This document shows positions 1-35,220 of a DNA stretch of 36,895 nt, piece after piece. Source of the DNA: Chamaesiphon sp. 341R_metabat_111 (lineage in GTDB: Bacteria; Cyanobacteriota; Cyanobacteriia; Cyanobacteriales; Chamaesiphonaceae). The stretch is from positions 1 through 36,895 of the forward strand of contig JANXVE010000040.1 of NCBI GenBank assembly GCA_025351825.1, given 5' to 3'. Position 1 is the first letter of the stretch; each line of letters begins with the position of its first letter. The notes beneath the pieces were generated by a model. That model was given only the letters and a program-made list of their open reading frames with translations. It was not told the DNA's origin and made no database searches. Position numbers and translations under genes: made by a program.

Positions 1-135
1 ATTTCGATCGCTCAAGCTGGCGATGGAGTCCTGATCGCAGGCAAAGGACATGAAGATTACCAAATCCTCGGTACCGAGAAAATCCATTTTGACGATCGCG
101 AGCAGGCGCGAATTGCTCTAGGAAAGAGGTTTTAG
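1..135 (+). CDS. murE: UDP-N-acetylmuramyl-tripeptide synthetase MurE, 3' end only
   Basis: Frame 1 is open from the window edge to TAG at 133-135 and gives the last 44 residues of a Mur ligase. The stretch [13 protein letters not shown] followed by HFDDREQAR is the typical C-terminal signature of MurE, the cytoplasmic ligase that adds the third amino acid to UDP-MurNAc-dipeptide in peptidoglycan synthesis. The catalytic and ATP-binding regions lie outside the window, so which amino acid is added cannot be judged. The stop codon lies at the first base of a TTTAGGC-type heptamer tract. Confidence 0.93.
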
Positions 136-276
136 ACTTTAGGCTTTAGGCTTTGGAACAGAGTTGGGAGTTTGCAGTTGGGAGTGAGGAGCGAGGCTTA
201 TGAGCACGAAGGTTCTGGCAACCTCCCACACCCCCCACACTCCCCACACCTCCCACACTTCCCACACTCTCCCACA
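131..276 (+). repeat. composite spacer repeat: TTTAGGC heptamers then CCCACAC tract
   Basis: The murE stop is embedded in tandem TTTAGGC-like units (131-156). A GTTGGGAGT-type stretch (163-190) follows, then about seven CCCACAC-type units (222-276) that end at the ATG at 277. The same order (stop codon, TTTAGGC units, CCCACAC units, start codon) recurs on the minus strand between mrp and rodA. The spacer has no other visible content. Confidence 0.85.
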
Positions 277-987
277 ATGGAAAACCCTGCCACTCCAAAA
301 CTAAACTTTAGCGATCTTAAAGATGGATCGATCGCACATTTGATGCAGGAGTTGTGTACTCCGTTAACGAATATTCAAACAGCTCTAAAGCTACTCGAAT
401 CTCCAGGAATTAAACAAGTTCAACGCCAGAGATATTTGGGATTAATTCGGGGTGAATGCGATCGACAAAACTTGTTAATTAGTGGTGTGACTAGACTGCT
501 GGCGATCGATCGATCTCCCGATCCACTGGAAATAGTCCCAATTAATTTATCGCAAATTATTCCTGGCATCGTTAGTATTTACCAACCGTTAGCAGAAGAA
601 AAAGGGATTAGATTAGGTTACACCATCCCCGACGATTTGCCAGAAATTAGTTGTGTCGAGGGCTGGTTGCGTCAAATTGCGATCGATCTATTACACAACA
701 GTATTAAATACACACCTGAAGGTGGACATGTTTTTGTCCAAGCTTCCGTTCAGGATAAATATGTCCAGTTAGAATTTAGGGATACAGGCATCGGGATTCC
801 CCCACCAGAAATTCCCAAGATTTTCGACAGGTTTTACCGCGTTCGGAGTTTACCAAACGATCGTGGGGCGGGTTTAGGCTTAACGATCGTTCAAAATATT
901 CTGACTCGTTGTGGCGGCTCGATCTCAGTTGTCAGTCAAGTGGGTGCTGGATCGAAGTTTCGAGTACTTCTTCCGATTAGGCTTTAG
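277..987 (+). CDS. small sensor histidine-kinase-like protein with His-to-Gln change in the H-box
   Basis: This is a 236-aa soluble protein with a HisKA-like helical hairpin (residues 15-80) and a complete HATPase_c domain (about 125-235). The ATP-binding boxes are intact: N-box LLHNSIKYTP (N141), G1 DTGIGI (169-174), F-box FDRFYR and G2 GAGLGLTIV (about 198-205). Where the phosphoacceptor His normally sits in HELRTPL, the sequence reads MQELCTPL, so the position is Gln24; the nearest His is H21. There is no sensor or membrane segment. The frame opens upstream at TTG 172, but that would translate the CCCACAC repeat, so ATG 277 is preferred. The last two codons and the stop lie in the next heptamer tract. 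It may be a phosphatase or an adaptor rather than an autokinase. Confidence 0.85.
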   Translation: MENPATPKLNFSDLKDGSIAHLMQELCTPLTNIQTALKLLESPGIKQVQRQRYLGLIRGECDRQNLLISGVTRLLAIDRSPDPLEIVPINLSQIIPGIVSIYQPLAEEKGIRLGYTIPDDLPEISCVEGWLRQIAIDLLHNSIKYTPEGGHVFVQASVQDKYVQLEFRDTGIGIPPPEIPKIFDRFYRVRSLPNDRGAGLGLTIVQNILTRCGGSISVVSQVGAGSKFRVLLPIRL

Positions 988-1094
988 GCTTTGGGCTTTG
1001 GGTTTTAGACTTTGGGATTGGAAACAAATTAGAGAACGCTGGCGTTCTAAACTCTAACCCCTAAAGCCTAAAGCCTAACTCCTAAAGCCTAATT
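977..1094 (+). repeat. TTTAGGC / GCCTAAA inverted heptamer element
   Basis: The left arm of TTTAGGC/TTTGGGC units begins inside the last codons of the kinase-like gene (977-1016). A small stem, AGAACGC/GCGTTCT (1033-1048), sits in the middle. The right arm of CCTAAAG units (1055-1093) ends a few bases before the next gene's start. The transcript could fold into one long imperfect hairpin. The same design occurs at 1938-2086 and 35103-35220. Confidence 0.85.
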
Positions 1095-1097
1095 CCC

Positions 1098-1940
1098 GTG
1101 TTATCCAAATTCAGATTTATGTTAGTCAAAGTGATTCAAATCTTTTTGGCAGGTTGCGCGCTAGTATTTTTAACTAGTATTTACGCTCACAAAATCGAAC
1201 CGATCTGGTTTGAAGTTAAGCACATCGATATTACGCTACCACAACTCGATCGAGCATTCAACGGTTATCGGATCGTCCAAATTAGCGATCTTCATGCTGG
1301 GGATGGAACTAATCGATCTCAGTTGGAAAAAGTTGTGGCGGCTGTCAACGCCGAACATCCAGATTTAGTCGTAATTACTGGCGATCATGTCACGCGCATC
1401 CCAAAACAGCACCTAGACTTACTAGATACTCTAGCTAAATTACAGCCGCGCGATCGAACTATCTCAATCTTGGGTAATCATGACGTACACAACAATCTTG
1501 CACCCGTTCGAGCAGCCATCGAGAAAGCAGGCATTACGTTACTAGAGAATAGTGTCTACACCCTCAACCGCGACAAAGCAACGCTACACATCGCTGGCGT
1601 TGGCGATGTCTATTTCAAACAGGATAAACTCGATCTAGTTCTCGCCCAACTACCCGCCACCGGAGCCGCAATCATGCTAGCGCACGAGCCAGACTTTGCC
1701 GACAAAACCGCTGCTACTGGACGATTTGGGCTACAATTGTCTGGACACTCCCACGGCGGACAAATTCGGCTCCCCTTTTTCAGCGGATATGTACCGACTC
1801 TGGCTGAAAAATACCCCCTCGGACAATATCAAGTTGGCAACATGGTTCAGTATACTAATCGAGGCATTGGGATGGTCAAACTTTACGCCCGTTTCAATTG
1901 CCGTCCAGAAATTTCAGTGTTTAATCTAGTCGCAAGTTAG
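1098..1940 (+). CDS. membrane-anchored metallophosphoesterase (YaeI/YkuE-type)
   Basis: This is a 280-aa calcineurin-like phosphoesterase. An N-terminal hydrophobic segment (about 10-30) is followed by the dinuclear-metal motifs in order: SDLHAGD (D64, H66), TGD (D96), GNHD (N127, H128, D129), AHEPD (H196) and GHSHGGQ (H217, H219). Size and layout match the YaeI/YkuE group of membrane-bound phosphodiesterases; the substrate cannot be read from sequence. The listed start is GTG 1098; ATG 1119 is a reasonable alternative that keeps the hydrophobic anchor, and neither has a clear ribosome-binding site. The spacers on both sides are TTTAGGC-type repeats, and the stop TAG is the first part of the downstream repeat. 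Confidence 0.88.
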   Translation: MLSKFRFMLVKVIQIFLAGCALVFLTSIYAHKIEPIWFEVKHIDITLPQLDRAFNGYRIVQISDLHAGDGTNRSQLEKVVAAVNAEHPDLVVITGDHVTRIPKQHLDLLDTLAKLQPRDRTISILGNHDVHNNLAPVRAAIEKAGITLLENSVYTLNRDKATLHIAGVGDVYFKQDKLDLVLAQLPATGAAIMLAHEPDFADKTAATGRFGLQLSGHSHGGQIRLPFFSGYVPTLAEKYPLGQYQVGNMVQYTNRGIGMVKLYARFNCRPEISVFNLVAS

Positions 1941-2086
1941 GCTTTAGGCTTTAGGTCATGGACTTTAGATGTTAGGCTGTGAATGTTAGTTTTGATAACG
2001 TTTTCGTCTGCTAAATTCTACAATCTCTAGAGTTTTATCTTTTCCCTAAAGCCTAAAGCCCAAAGTCTAATACCTAATCCCTAACC
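1938..2086 (+). repeat. TTTAGGC / CCTAAAG inverted heptamer element
   Basis: It starts in the stop codon of the phosphoesterase (TAGGCTTTAGGCTTTAGG). A 90-base AT-rich middle follows, and CCTAAAGCCTAAAGCC-type units (2045-2086) close it just before the gatA ATG at 2089. It fills the whole spacer. The central palindrome seen in two sister copies is not clear here. Confidence 0.8.
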
Positions 2087-7523: not shown

Positions 7524-7892
7524 ATGCTCACTGGTGCTTTTGTAACGATCGCAAGTATTAATTTCGATGTGGTAGTGAAATTTTACACCCAATTTCTGGA
7601 AAGCCAACCCCAGCCATATCTACCCCATGTCTACGCTGAATTTTCGATTGCAGGATTGAAGTTAGGCATTTTTTGCCCTAAGCCTAGCAATTATGATGAG
7701 TTTAAGCAGCCTAGTCAGAGCGGGATGAGCTTGTGTCTGGAAGTGGTTAACCTGGAAGATTCGATCGATAAATTAGCTCAACTCGGCTATGCGCCGCTAG
7801 GACAAATCACCACCGCCTCCCACGGACGCGAAATCTACGCCTACGATCCCGACGGCAATCGCCTAATTCTCCATCAATCGGCGAATACTTGA
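7524..7892 (+). CDS. VOC (glyoxalase/bleomycin-resistance/dioxygenase) superfamily protein
   Basis: This 122-aa protein has the two-repeat beta-alpha-beta-beta-beta VOC pattern. The first half contains NFDVVVKFYTQFLE. The second contains CLEVVNLEDSIDKLAQLGY and ends with the typical AYDPDGNRLILHQ, where the aspartate-proline-x-glycine-asparagine turn is the family hallmark. It is a single small domain that would work as a dimer around a metal site; the enzyme activity is not assignable. The spacer before it (7282-7523) is AT-rich and shows nothing I could name. A long hairpin repeat follows the gene. Confidence 0.8.
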   Translation: MLTGAFVTIASINFDVVVKFYTQFLESQPQPYLPHVYAEFSIAGLKLGIFCPKPSNYDEFKQPSQSGMSLCLEVVNLEDSIDKLAQLGYAPLGQITTASHGREIYAYDPDGNRLILHQSANT

Positions 7893-7942
7893 TAAGCTCA
7901 CATCTTGCACCAATGCGTAGACACTATTACTGTCATAACATC

Positions 7943-8007
7943 AGGGCGGGCACAGAGCCACGCCCCTACACAATTAACCTGTAGGGGCGTGGTCTTGTGC
8001 CCGCCCT
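7943..8007. repeat. long hairpin repeat (AGGGCGGGCAC...GTGCCCGCCCT)
   Basis: Two 28-base arms (7943-7970 and 7980-8007) pair with only two or three mismatches around a short AATTAACC loop. A half-copy matching one arm plus the loop sequence lies at 28698-28733, so this is a dispersed family. It may also act as the VOC gene's terminator. Confidence 0.85.
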
Positions 8008-8040
8008 AGATCTACGCTAATTACTATTTCCTAATTCCCC

Positions 8041-11767: not shown

Positions 11768-11775
11768 TTGGGTGC

Positions 11776-11872
11776 GTTGGGTTGTCTCCTGACGGAGAGG
11801 CTACGCCAACATTCTTCAACCCAACCTACGGATCTGCTAAACCACTAACAACTAAACCACTAAACCACCACT
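11776..11872 (-). repeat. composite repeat after rodA: TTTAGTGG units plus 50-bp imperfect palindrome
   Basis: Read on the minus strand, (TTTAGTGG)n-type units (11836-11870) follow the rodA stop directly. A 50-base element with 8-base ends GTTGGGTT/AACCCAAC (11776-11825) comes next, with an inner stem TCTCC/GGAGA (11785-11798). The same composite, with a palindrome differing at two positions, follows the DEP-domain gene at 16308-16401. Confidence 0.85.
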
Positions 11873-13123
11873 TCAACTAAATCTACGCCGATAGTTTGCA
11901 ACAGATTCTACTAGCCCGATTGCGACAAAATTGGTAATCAGTGCCGATCGACCATAGCTGATCCAGGGTAGCGGAATGCCCGTAACAGGTGCAACCCCGA
12001 TCGTCATACTGATATTGACGATGACCTGAAAACTAATCATCGACAGCACCCCAATCGCCAGCAGCGAGCCAAAGTTGTCGGGAGCTTGGCGGGCAATCTT
12101 CAGCAGTCGCCAGCAGAGAAAGAAAAAAGTCAGCAGTAGACACATGCCCCCGACAAATCCTAGTTCCTCCCCGATCGACGAAAAGATAAAATCAGTATGC
12201 TGTTCGGGAATAAAATTAAGCTGGGTTTGAGTACCTTGATTGAGTCCCTGTCCCCATAGTTCTCCGGCACCGATGGCAATACGTGACTGAATCAGGTGAT
12301 AACCAGATCCCAGTTGATCCGCTTCAGGATTGAGAAAAACGATCAGCCGTTTGCGTTGATATTCCTTGAGAATACCCCAGATGATCGGCCCGATCGATCC
12401 AGCACTGAGATTAACGCCAAGGGCAACAATCGCACTTACCCAGCGCATTGGCAGCGTCAACCAAGCTACAATCCCCGCCAACACTGACCAAAAGATCCAG
12501 ATGGGGATGCTGACGCTGTGGAGAATTGCCGCCGCTAGGGGCGATACTAGCAGCAATAACCAGCCTGGATTGGCATTTGCCCAGTACAACATGCCCAGAG
12601 CGATTGCCCCAAATACTAACGATGTGCCTAGATCTGGCTGTTTGAATACCAGCAGCCAGGGTGGGATCGTAATCGCCAAAGCACGTAAAAATGTCGGTAA
12701 AGTATTCGCTGGACGATGATGCAACATCGCCGCCAGCGTAATAATCAGCCCCACCTTGGCGAACTCTGACGGCTGCACTTGGATCCCCGCGATGCTAATC
12801 CACCGCTGCGCCCCTTTGGCACTACTCCCCAAGGCAATTACCGCTAGTAACAAGCCATTCGTCGCACCATACGTCACCCAGTGCCAACGCAGCAAATTAG
12901 TGTAGGGAATCCGTGCCAGCCCCAACACAATCACCAGCCCAATCCCCCCAAAGATCCAGTGTTGTGTCCAATCAGTTACAGCCTGATTTAACTCGGCACT
13001 GCGGATCATCACCCCACCAAAGAATGTCAAACCGATTACCAGTAGTATTAGCACCCAATCCATTTGTTGCCAATGGATGAATAGATCTTGCCAAGGGGAT
13101 CTGCGGGATGAGTTGCGCTGCAT
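11873..13123 (-). CDS. rodA: SEDS-family peptidoglycan glycosyltransferase RodA
   Basis: This is a 416-aa polytopic membrane protein with about ten hydrophobic segments. The SEDS signature is clear: PEQHTDFIFSSIGEELGF in the long extracytoplasmic loop (with the glutamate and aspartate needed for polymerase activity) and the C-terminal TGIPLPWISYGRS. It polymerises lipid II into glycan strands for side-wall elongation together with a class B PBP, which is not in the window. The N-terminal arrangement (WQQMDWVLILLVIGLTFFG) fits RodA better than FtsW. The ATG at 13123 lies just after a GTGTGGG tract. mrp lies upstream on the same strand, 148 bp away. Confidence 0.93.
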   Translation of the reverse strand: MQRNSSRRSPWQDLFIHWQQMDWVLILLVIGLTFFGGVMIRSAELNQAVTDWTQHWIFGGIGLVIVLGLARIPYTNLLRWHWVTYGATNGLLLAVIALGSSAKGAQRWISIAGIQVQPSEFAKVGLIITLAAMLHHRPANTLPTFLRALAITIPPWLLVFKQPDLGTSLVFGAIALGMLYWANANPGWLLLLVSPLAAAILHSVSIPIWIFWSVLAGIVAWLTLPMRWVSAIVALGVNLSAGSIGPIIWGILKEYQRKRLIVFLNPEADQLGSGYHLIQSRIAIGAGELWGQGLNQGTQTQLNFIPEQHTDFIFSSIGEELGFVGGMCLLLTFFFLCWRLLKIARQAPDNFGSLLAIGVLSMISFQVIVNISMTIGVAPVTGIPLPWISYGRSALITNFVAIGLVESVANYRRRFS

Positions 13124-13277
13124 TTTTGGGGTGTGGGAGTGTGGGGGTGTGGGAAGTGTGGGAAGTGTGGGGGGTGTGGGAAGTGTGGGGGGTGTGGGGG
13201 TGTGAGAATAATTTCCCCAAAACCTAAAGCCTACCCTCTACCCTCTACTCTCATACCCCAAAGCCTAAAGCCTAACC
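13124..13277 (-). repeat. composite spacer repeat between mrp and rodA
   Basis: On the minus strand the mrp stop TAG starts a TTAGGCTTTAGGCTTTGGGG tract (about 13258-13277). A GAGGGTAGAGGGTAGGCTTT stretch follows (about 13222-13245). CCCACAC-type units (13130-13204) then run to the rodA ATG. Order and orientation relative to transcription match the murE-kinase spacer at 131-276. Confidence 0.85.
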
Positions 13278-16288: not shown

Positions 16289-16306
16289 ATAGTTGATAGT
16301 TGAGTG
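16287..16306 (+). repeat. short TAGTTGA tandem tract after hemF
   Basis: Two to three TAGTTGA-like units begin at the hemF stop codon. Tracts of the same heptamer follow the ABC exporter stop (32908-32936) and the DUF565 stop (28768-28789). Confidence 0.7.
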
Positions 16307-16307
16307 T

Positions 16308-16401
16308 GTTGGGTTGTCTCCTGACGGAGAGGCTCCGCCAACATTCTTTAACCCAACCTACAGATCTCTTGCTAAACCACTAAACCACTAAACCACTAAA
16401 T
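16308..16401 (-). repeat. composite repeat after the DEP-domain gene
   Basis: On the minus strand, TTTAGTGG units (16372-16400) follow the stop codon. They lead into a 50-base element (16308-16357) with GTTGGGTT/AACCCAAC ends and an inner TCTCC/GGAGA stem. It differs from the copy at 11776-11825 at two positions only. Confidence 0.85.
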
Positions 16402-16956: not shown

Positions 16957-17066
16957 GCCACCTATTTCCTAATGGGACAAAAATCGAATTTGTGAACGAT
17001 ACATTAATCTGAATATTAGTTACTATACCCCTCTGGTCGATCGATATTAACCGATCCAAAAATAAT

Positions 17067-17090
17067 ATCCTGCTAGCGGTCTAGCAGGAT
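17067..17090 (-). terminator. intrinsic terminator of the M23 peptidase gene
   Basis: ATCCTGCTAG/CTAGCAGGAT forms a perfect 10-bp stem with a 4-base loop about 30 bases after the stop. On the minus strand it is followed by ATTATTTTTGG, a T-rich tail. Confidence 0.85.
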
Positions 17091-17120
17091 CGGTAAATCC
17101 ACAAAAACGTTAGATCTAAA

Positions 17121-28767: not shown

Positions 28768-28789
28768 CAACTATCAACTATCAACTAAC
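28768..28789 (-). repeat. TAGTTGA tandem tract after the DUF565 gene
   Basis: Three TAGTTGA units follow the DUF565 stop codon on the minus strand. Confidence 0.75.
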
Positions 28790-32908: not shown

Positions 32909-32936
32909 ATTAGTTGATAGTTGATAGTTGATAGTT
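32908..32936 (+). repeat. TAGTTGA tandem tract after the ABC exporter gene
   Basis: Three to four TAGTTGA units follow the stop codon by one base. Confidence 0.8.
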
Positions 32937-34034: not shown

Positions 34035-34265
34035 TAGCTGCTAATTTTAAAGATGAAAATATAAGTAAATAGTTTGGCGATCGAGGTTGTGTAGCTGTTA
34101 ATTCAGATAATACACTAACTTGAATAGCGATCTCATTCAAGTTATCGCTAGCGGCTCAAGTATCCCCAACCTTGACAAGATCGGTGGTACTGCTTAAGTC
34201 GATCGCGAAATCTTGCGCAAGCTGTCCAGAAGACCATTATAGTTTTTTTGCCAAAACAGATCGCT

Positions 34266-34307
34266 AACCCGATCGGGTTTTTTGCAAACAAAACTATTTG
34301 TTTTGTT
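34266..34307 (+). promoter_or_regulatory. psaF leader: terminator-like hairpin plus second stem
   Basis: AACCCGATCGGGTT (34266-34279) is a perfect palindrome that runs into a T tract (34278-34283), like a short intrinsic terminator. A second stem, AACAAAAC/GTTTTGTT (34287-34307), follows at once, 19 bases before the psaF ATG. In the rest of the 34035-34326 spacer I see no motif I can name. Confidence 0.5.
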
Positions 34308-34326
34308 ACATAAAGAAACAATTACT

Positions 34327-35102: not shown

Positions 35103-35220
35103 ATTAGGTGTTAGGGATTAGGGATTAGGGATTAGGCTTTAGGGGTTAGAAAGAAAAACGCTAGCGTTTTAAAATCTTTAAAAGCCTAAAGTCTAAACCC
35201 TAGAGCACCAAACCCTAAAC
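35103..35220 (+). repeat. inverted heptamer element between psaJ and psaL
   Basis: TTAGGGA/TTAGGCT units (35104-35149) oppose CCTAAAG/CCCTAAAC units (about 35183-35220) around the palindrome AAAACGCTAGCGTTTT (35155-35170). It starts at the psaJ stop and ends 29 bases before psaL. It may act as an RNA stabiliser or partial terminator within the PSI transcript. Confidence 0.85.

Follow-up and report, generated by a model that had tools for sequence, protein, structure and literature searches.

The 36,895-nt contig JANXVE010000040.1 of Chamaesiphon sp. 341R_metabat_111, which we refer to as the window when the whole stretch is meant, contains five intergenic spacers in which arrays of tandem heptamers begin at the stop codon of one gene and end close to the start codon of the next, raising the question of what places and orients such arrays. 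An earlier note on this DNA had proposed an element selected in, or targeted to, intercistronic RNA. Our results showed that the arrays crowd gene edges with their C-poor strand pointing out of the gene, that one unit gives way to another between species with position and polarity largely unchanged, that paired arrays in a spacer have a unit in common above chance and can switch it together, and that the final codons of an upstream gene, its stop included, can lie in array sequence. The observation is strong and general in the genus, and it represents a variant of a known heptamer placement, which Rehm et al. (2015) already reported for G-quadruplex (G4) heptamers.

To establish how far the arrays exceed chance, we searched the parent assembly (G000; 4.06 Mb in 202 contigs, the window being contig C121). 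Exact (TTTAGGC)2 occurred 70 times versus none for a reversed control, and a 20-mer allowed up to three mismatches gave 593 matches versus five for its control. For detailed analysis we used the window together with 40 other stretches (806,895 bp, 763 genes, ~20% of the genome), a sample biased to long contigs seen among the repeat matches. Of its 595 spacers of 30-1000 bp, 152 carried 214 tracts of tandem 7-9-mers. The best period was 7 in 122 tracts, 8 in 43, 14 in 21 and 21 in 13, while base-shuffled spacers yielded five tracts in total and none with any of these periods. Within the first 434 kb, period-7 tracts numbered 54 in spacers versus four in coding DNA, and periods 5, 6 and 10 to 13 gave no spacer tracts. 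Head-to-tail 7-bp units that are dispersed and intergenic are what characterizes the cyanobacterial short tandemly repeated repetitive (STRR) sequences, or heptamer simple sequence repeats. STRR sequences, tandem heptamers in cyanobacterial intergenic DNA, were reportedly described by Mazel et al. in 1990, and small dispersed repeats embedded in heptamers in such DNA are said to have been described by Elhai et al. in 2008.

Genes were predicted with our own hexamer caller, for which stops are firm and starts less so, and which misses small genes. It took the rodA start at 13063 and missed psaJ, such that the rodA start arm was scored farther from its edge than it is and the psaJ-psaL stop arm was counted as far from any stop. 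Polarity was scored as G minus C of the tract, a measure that holds little information for balanced units, and was called outward when the G-rich, C-poor strand ran 5' to 3' out of the gene. Within 10 nt of a gene edge we found 114 of the 214 tracts, versus 63.4 +/- 6.2 (maximum 88 in 2000 trials) under uniform placement that kept the length and spacer of each tract. Within 20 nt, 129 tracts were outward and 5 inward (75:4 at stops, 54:1 at starts). A near-closed congener in three contigs, G006, sampled over 400 kb at 20 spaced sites, gave 53:1 (co-directional 40:0, convergent 11:1, divergent 2:0), for a pooled ratio of 182:6. Likewise, orthologous spacers of the window (eight congeners) and of loci L089 and L101 (six congeners) were outward near edges by 92:4. 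These results argue against tracts being randomly placed relative to stop codons and strand in the 20% sample, and they bear out the enrichment at stops and the fixed order reported in the earlier note. The arrays lie in sense after stops and in antisense before starts, close to the open reading frame (ORF), as in the placement described by Rehm et al. A general base skew at edges was considered as the cause and rejected, as the like-signed skew of tract-free spacers, both here and in other cyanobacteria, is weak (0.08-0.15 in the 10 nt beside the edge).

Re-reading the sequence confirmed the five window spacers as they had been described. In the murE-kinase spacer (plus strand), the stop-side arm at 131-154, TTTAGAC(TTTAGGC)2, includes the murE stop TAG at 133-135 (..GGTTTTAGACTTTAGGC), and the start-side arm at 221-276, composed of C-rich 7-9-mers of CCCACAC type and thus of a unit unlike that of the stop side, directly adjoins the kinase ATG at 277. 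In the kinase-phosphoesterase spacer (plus strand), TTAGGCT/TTTGGGC units at 977-1013 encode the kinase tail and its stop at 985-987 (..ATTAGGCTTTAG); a palindromic core at 1034-1047 (GAACGCTGGCGTTC) is followed by CCTAAAG units at 1046-1092, which end 5 nt upstream of the likely phosphoesterase GTG at 1098. The phosphoesterase-gatA spacer (plus strand) has a TTAGGCT arm at 1937-1955 that includes the stop TAG at 1938-1940 (..AGTTAGGCTTTAGG) and a CCTAAAG-type arm at 2045-2084, 4 nt before the gatA ATG at 2089. On the minus strand, the mrp-rodA spacer carries TTTAGGC and GGGTAGA units at 13231-13277, including the mrp stop at 13272-13274 (..GGTTAGGCTTTAGG), and a CCCACAC-type arm at 13128-13204 that ends 4-7 nt before the rodA ORF start at 13123. 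Finally, the psaJ-psaL spacer (plus strand) has ATTAGGG units at 35103-35149, a palindromic core at 35155-35170 (AAAACGCTAGCGTTTT) and a GCCTAAA-type arm at 35181-35219, which stops ~29 nt short of the psaL ATG, upstream of a GAGAGG motif common to congeners; the psaJ stop is a TAA just beyond its tract. Altogether, the stop TAG lies inside a TTTAGGC-like unit in four of the five spacers (murE, kinase, phosphoesterase and mrp), and the start-side tract ends 0 to 4-7 nt from the next start in four of five. Elsewhere, the stop codon is directly followed by ATTAATTGAG(AATTGAG)n at L085 12254, L086 ~7605-7640, L092 3811 and L118 ~378, one unit family exactly abutting the stops of four genes that use three different stop codons.

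The order of the arms alone is uninformative about transcription, because an inverted pair reads alike on both strands. All 21 convergent period-7 tracts were outward, as were 17 of the 24 divergent ones, including 11 of the 12 divergent tracts within 20 nt of an edge. Convergent spacers had tracts about as often as co-directional ones: counted over neighboring gene pairs, the proportions were 105/482 co-directional, 23/122 convergent and 24/118 divergent, and over spacers of 30-1000 bp they were 105/387, 23/92 and 24/116, respectively. The density of period-7 tracts per kb of spacer was 1.46, 1.16 and 0.82, respectively, indicating that divergent spacers are somewhat poorer in tracts, as Rehm et al. 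found. Since the rule holds at stops, at starts, and in convergent and near-edge divergent spacers, it follows gene borders and not transcription, and the proposed tie to intercistronic RNA or transcription direction was not supported.

We also examined whether the content of the units explains their polarity. The earlier note had pointed out that a 7-base unit places a TAG in every frame, and the arrays might be translation insulators that supply stops in all frames after a gene or avoid start codons before one. TTTAGGC, TAGTTGA and GTGAATA do carry stops in their outward reading. However, at stop edges, units without a stop on either strand were still outward by 26:2, compared with 41:2 for units with stops on both strands, and at start edges units without a start codon on either strand gave 30:0. 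These counts rule out the stop-codon and start-codon explanations of polarity, and we consider insulation very unlikely to be the purpose of the arrays. The arrays might instead form G-quadruplexes and act in regulation, a role suggested for the repeats GGGNATC and GGGGA(C/T)T of Xanthomonas and Nostoc; the available text of PMC4692102 reports a like placement, and some units here contain GGG. Nevertheless, 127 of the 188 near-edge tracts lack GGG in their unit, and these are as polar as the others (122:5 without GGG, 60:1 with it). G4 formation was therefore rejected as the cause of polarity, and it is extremely improbable as an explanation of the arrays. Both ideas, G-quadruplexes as the general cause and translation insulators, are already disfavored.

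Orthologous spacers revealed how the arrays change. We compared 33 orthologous edges that carried a tract in two or more species: 127 species pairs had another unit with the same polarity, 38 had the same unit, and 12 were flipped, all 12 flips tracing to four tracts. The phosphoesterase-gatA spacer, for example, has TTTAGGC/GCCTAAA arms in the window, GGATAGTGAATAG/CTATCCACTATCC in G003 and GGATAGTGGATGG/CCATCCACCATCC in G008. Similarly, the window and G008 have the middle of the kinase-phosphoesterase spacer in common, yet neither arm is the same (TTAGGC/GCCTAAA versus GGGATAG/CTATCCC). Change in 7-base steps, as the earlier note expected, is seen between the murE-kinase spacers of G001 and G008, whose differences are a single TTTAGGC unit, one more base and one substitution. 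Polarity and turnover together separate position and direction from sequence, and strict polarity that is kept through sequence turnover offers a clean test of selection or mutation at gene borders. Nine of the 19 window orthologue groups had no tract in any sampled species, and several tract-free groups, e.g. 16957-17120 and 34035-34326, are recognizably alike among species.

The kinase gene illustrates how an array enters coding sequence. Its HATPase_c domain ends at residue 234 of 236, and its C-terminus varies among congeners (LLPIRL, LLPIRG, LLPTKS or LLPTGG), G002 and G007 having longer tails. The residues after LLP are plainly array sequence in the window, G008, G002 and G007, which shows that both these final residues and the stop come from the array. 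In Hassallia and Tolypothrix (L028 1804-1910 and L037 4732-4848), outward arrays of other units stand at both ends of the spacer that follows the related kinase.

The two arms of a spacer are related to one another. Outward tracts on both sides were found in 34 spacers versus 11.2 expected, and arm similarity within a spacer was 0.322 versus 0.094 in shuffled controls (0/5000). For arms at gene edges in G000, similarity across the spacer was 0.438 versus 0.119 (n=21, 0/5000), and a test of the window alone agreed (0.119 versus 0.061, n=31, 0/5000). Among 37 both-sided spacers compared across species, similarity was 0.325, versus 0.199 when arms were swapped among species with the spacer held constant (2/5000). 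A panhandle flanking the gene was rejected, because arms across a gene were not alike in G000 (0.154 versus 0.121, n=11, 1585/5000) or in G006 (0.025 versus 0.081).

A minority of loci have, between the arms, a 14-bp dyad, RGACGCWWGCGTCY. The form AACGCTRGCGTT was discarded as a shared core, as it has two genomic sites only, both in the window, and the broader dyad ACGCNNGCGT was used instead. In G000 this dyad occurs in 5 of the 152 tract spacers and in none of the 443 without a tract (a sixth sampled copy is located outside them), and the corresponding counts in G006 are 6 of 56 and 0 of 238; none of six control palindromes gave such a pattern. In G006, 19 of 20 copies of GACGCWWGCGTC had a tract within 110 nt; the left flanks were G-type in 11 of 11 cases and the right flanks C-type in 16 of 16, with 8 copies flanked on both sides. 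Of 400 random spacer centers, 78 had any tract and 16 had tracts on both sides, draws too near the end of a stretch being counted as misses. Each of nine genomes of the genus has 1 to 20 copies of the core, whereas 142 other genomes of the order have 0 to 3, with any at all in 31.

These associations suggest that tandem-heptamer arms around a core dyad might move between junctions as a mobile composite element, like repetitive extragenic palindrome (REP) doublets (REPINs) or miniature inverted-repeat transposable elements (MITEs), in which case outward polarity would simply be a property of its ends. The confinement of the core to tract spacers, its oriented tract neighbors and its scarcity outside the genus favor this idea, as do the apparent preference of species for particular units and the existence of tract-free orthologous junctions of only 0-7 bp. 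On the other hand, just 11 of 208 tract spacers contain the core, the middle can persist while the arms change, and polarity weakens with distance from the edge. Neither a transposase nor a target duplication turned up, although no search was aimed at either. A MITE has terminal inverted repeats, a target-site duplication and a transposase relative; here inverted arms are present, and orthologues lacking a tract were no shorter as a group (median 163 versus 155 bp), their proportion of 20 bp or less (12/61) being near that of groups that never have a tract (14/81). Insertion into tiny junctions, of which examples exist, thus finds no support in the larger orthologue set. On balance, a mobile element is an unlikely explanation. 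REPs themselves are described in the available text of PMC3733652 as short palindromes tagged with GTAG or CGTC, the GTAG type being associated with RAYT, and GACG/CGTC occurs inside the palindrome of the core. Like the arrays, REPs and REPINs are intergenic inverted pairs able to fold as hairpins; unlike the arms here, which are tandem arrays of changing unit, they have no tandem arrays as that text presents them.

A further possibility is that the arrays are intercistronic RNA elements whose hairpins are selected to stabilize, process or partly terminate transcripts. We folded spacers of 60-320 bp, capping the tract-free set at 60 and the one-sided set at 40. Spacers whose arms share a unit folded strongly (median z -5.05, 11/11 below -2), as did three of the four window spacers folded (kinase-phosphoesterase -6.0, phosphoesterase-gatA -5.0 and psaJ-psaL -4.3). 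In addition, complementarity of the core runs one base beyond it in 18 of 20 copies versus 9.7 when shuffled, and is at chance level farther out. However, spacers with unlike arms (median z -1.39, 7/19 below -2; murE-kinase, -0.08) folded no better than tract-free spacers (median z -1.58, 26/60), and one-sided spacers gave a median of -1.83 (19/40). An intrinsic terminator is a stable hairpin with a U run behind it; excess folding was confined to spacers whose arms share a unit, and a stabilizing or terminating hairpin is not a general rule. Moreover, the arms of the 24 divergent pairs with tracts are not expected in one transcript. The hairpins look like by-products, and a selected RNA element appears quite improbable. 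In summary, enrichment at stops, order and 7-base steps survive from the earlier interpretation, and the tie to RNA and transcription does not; G-quadruplex, stop-codon and RNA-hairpin accounts of heptamers are all weakened as general explanations.

What, then, might produce the arrangement? We propose, giving the proposal an even chance of being correct, that slippage-grown STRR-type arrays are copied from arm to arm, halted at constrained bases, and selected for polarity near edges. Each spacer would be bounded by one or two such arrays, of 7-mers and some 8- and 9-mers. Slippage would make arrays grow or shrink 7 bases at a time. A template switch spanning the spacer would recopy one arm from the other (quasipalindrome correction), and units would additionally spread between loci; according to the available text of PMC8794818, template switching makes and maintains hairpins and paired arms. 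Growth would continue until it meets constrained bases, which on the stop side are those of the last codon still required and on the start side those of the start codon or ribosome-binding site. Near the edges, purifying selection would then remove the opposite orientation, leaving G-poor leaders ahead of starts and C-poor trailers behind stops. For starts a reason is easily given, namely an open leader free of Shine-Dalgarno-like G runs; none such is at hand for stops. Polarity near edges is probably selected, and this is the weakest step of the proposal. The placement can be explained in this way without an RNA function, although same-unit pairs would still fold as strong hairpins if transcribed.

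Several observations weigh against this proposal. We are aware of no selection pressure that would favor C-poor sequence behind stops, and the weak skew of tract-free edges has the same sign as that of the tracts. Polarity declines with distance: in G000 the outward-to-inward ratio was 13:6 at 21-40 nt, 23:20 at 41-80 nt and 6:12 beyond 80 nt, and in G006 polarity was gone beyond 40 nt (13:15 in all, 6:8 at 41-80 nt and 7:7 farther), from which it follows that simple palindrome formation is insufficient as the whole account. Unlike arms were present in 19 of the 30 both-sided spacers that were folded. In G006 alone, similarity of arms across the spacer was not significant (0.276 versus 0.164, n=12, 476/5000), and the value of 0.325 across species exceeded only moderately that obtained by swapping arms among the spacers of one species (0.238, 79/5000); the two swap controls together indicate that arm likeness is due partly to species-favored units and partly to the spacer itself. 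Lastly, in the distant genome G051, tracts occurred in 27 of 73 spacers with a polarity of only 6:3 within 20 nt, meaning that the rule is not universal or that G minus C scores its balanced units poorly.

Alternatively, and more tentatively, some border-sensing force or process might keep the C-poor strand outward through full replacement of the unit, regardless of transcription direction, with the arms and the occasional 14-bp core evolving in concert; the result would be a composite border element defined by position and polarity and not by sequence. The arrays, present in about a quarter of the sampled spacers, provide a natural system for studying the arm-to-arm template switching that we propose.

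TTTAGGC is present in all eight congeners, and its restriction to the genus was ruled out, as matches also turned up in 31 of 142 other genomes from the order, four of them with 20 or more (G051, 104; G076, 67; G090, 27; G091, 22). In a sister genus, tracts were found in 1 of 45 (G009) and 1 of 60 spacers (G010). A genome of another family, G011, had them in 4 of 35 spacers with a polarity of 5:0, and the G012 contigs had none in 8 spacers. Over 46 other cyanobacterial loci (218 spacers), polarity within 20 nt was 6:1.

Among the matches listed in a literature search that left out most subscription journals, only Rehm 2015 and MacGregor 2015 concerned bacterial heptamers by title, and a search of the same scope on Chamaesiphon repeats gave no paper. 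In the available text of Rehm et al. (2015; PMC4692102), G4-type heptamers of Xanthomonas and Nostoc lie mostly within 50 bp of ORFs, on the coding strand after stops, overlap with the stop included, and on the non-coding strand before starts; facing pairs form inverted repeats in Xanthomonas and only a few in Nostoc, and heptamers are under-represented between divergent ORFs. As far as that text goes, the two systems share intergenic heptamer arrays with identical placement at stops and starts, and they differ in that many units follow the rule here, most near-edge ones lacking GGG. Relative to the same text, the present analysis adds the codon and G4 tests, turnover at fixed polarity, the controls of arm similarity and the shared dyad core. 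The available text of MacGregor (2015; PMC4679880) describes TAACTGA direct repeats in Beggiatoaceae, some cyanobacteria and Bacteroidetes. They lie mostly just upstream of starts in Beggiatoaceae, vary between two closely related Cyanothece strains largely in multiples of 7 nt, and have mixed orientations in Microcystis. These, too, are intergenic heptamers that change by 7 nt; unlike the arrays studied here, they consist of a single unit, and that text describes neither an outward rule at stops nor arm pairing.

Pfam matches support the kinase, phosphoesterase, amidase (gatA), RodA, Mrp-type ParA, PsaJ and PsaL assignments in the window. The 44-aa tail of the first gene had no Pfam match, and its name, murE, rests on the earlier note. 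The four best matches to the kinase (L001-L004), from Chamaesiphon-type metagenome genomes, were 82-88% identical. Alignment suggests that the phosphoesterase probably starts at GTG 1098 rather than ATG 1119, since all six aligned congeners have GTG at the former position and none has ATG at the latter. Likewise, RodA probably starts at 13123 rather than 13063, because the extra N-terminal stretch is alike in four aligned congeners. Window bases 1-141 match exactly the start of contig C155 on the opposite strand; the break in the contig therefore falls at the end of murE, next to the TTTAGGC array, and the overlap is probably an assembly junction.

Tracts absent from the earlier note include other units and those in convergent spacers at 16289-16400, 28768-28787, 32911-32936 and 11837-11868. 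The arm at 28768-28787 is TAGTTGA, running outward from a minus-strand gene end 2 nt from the stop, and that at 32911-32936 is TAGTTGA x3.7 on the plus strand, 2 nt after the stop. The spacer at 16289-16400 has unlike arms, ATAGTTG after the plus-strand gene and the octamer CTAAACCA by the minus-strand gene end, with a dispersed TTGGGTT palindrome between them. This palindrome, AGATCTGTAGGTTGGGTT..AACCCAACCTACAGATCT, occurs in the window at 16297-16367 and 11768-11853, at L099, L100, L113 and L114, and in many spacers; the copy at 16297-16367 has at least some two dozen close copies in G000, G001 and G008. A second dispersed element, GGGTACCC with AAGGGCACCCCTACA..TGTAGGGGTGCCC arms, was observed at window positions 7897-8026 and at L090, L092, L106 and L108, often beside CTCACATCTTGCACC.

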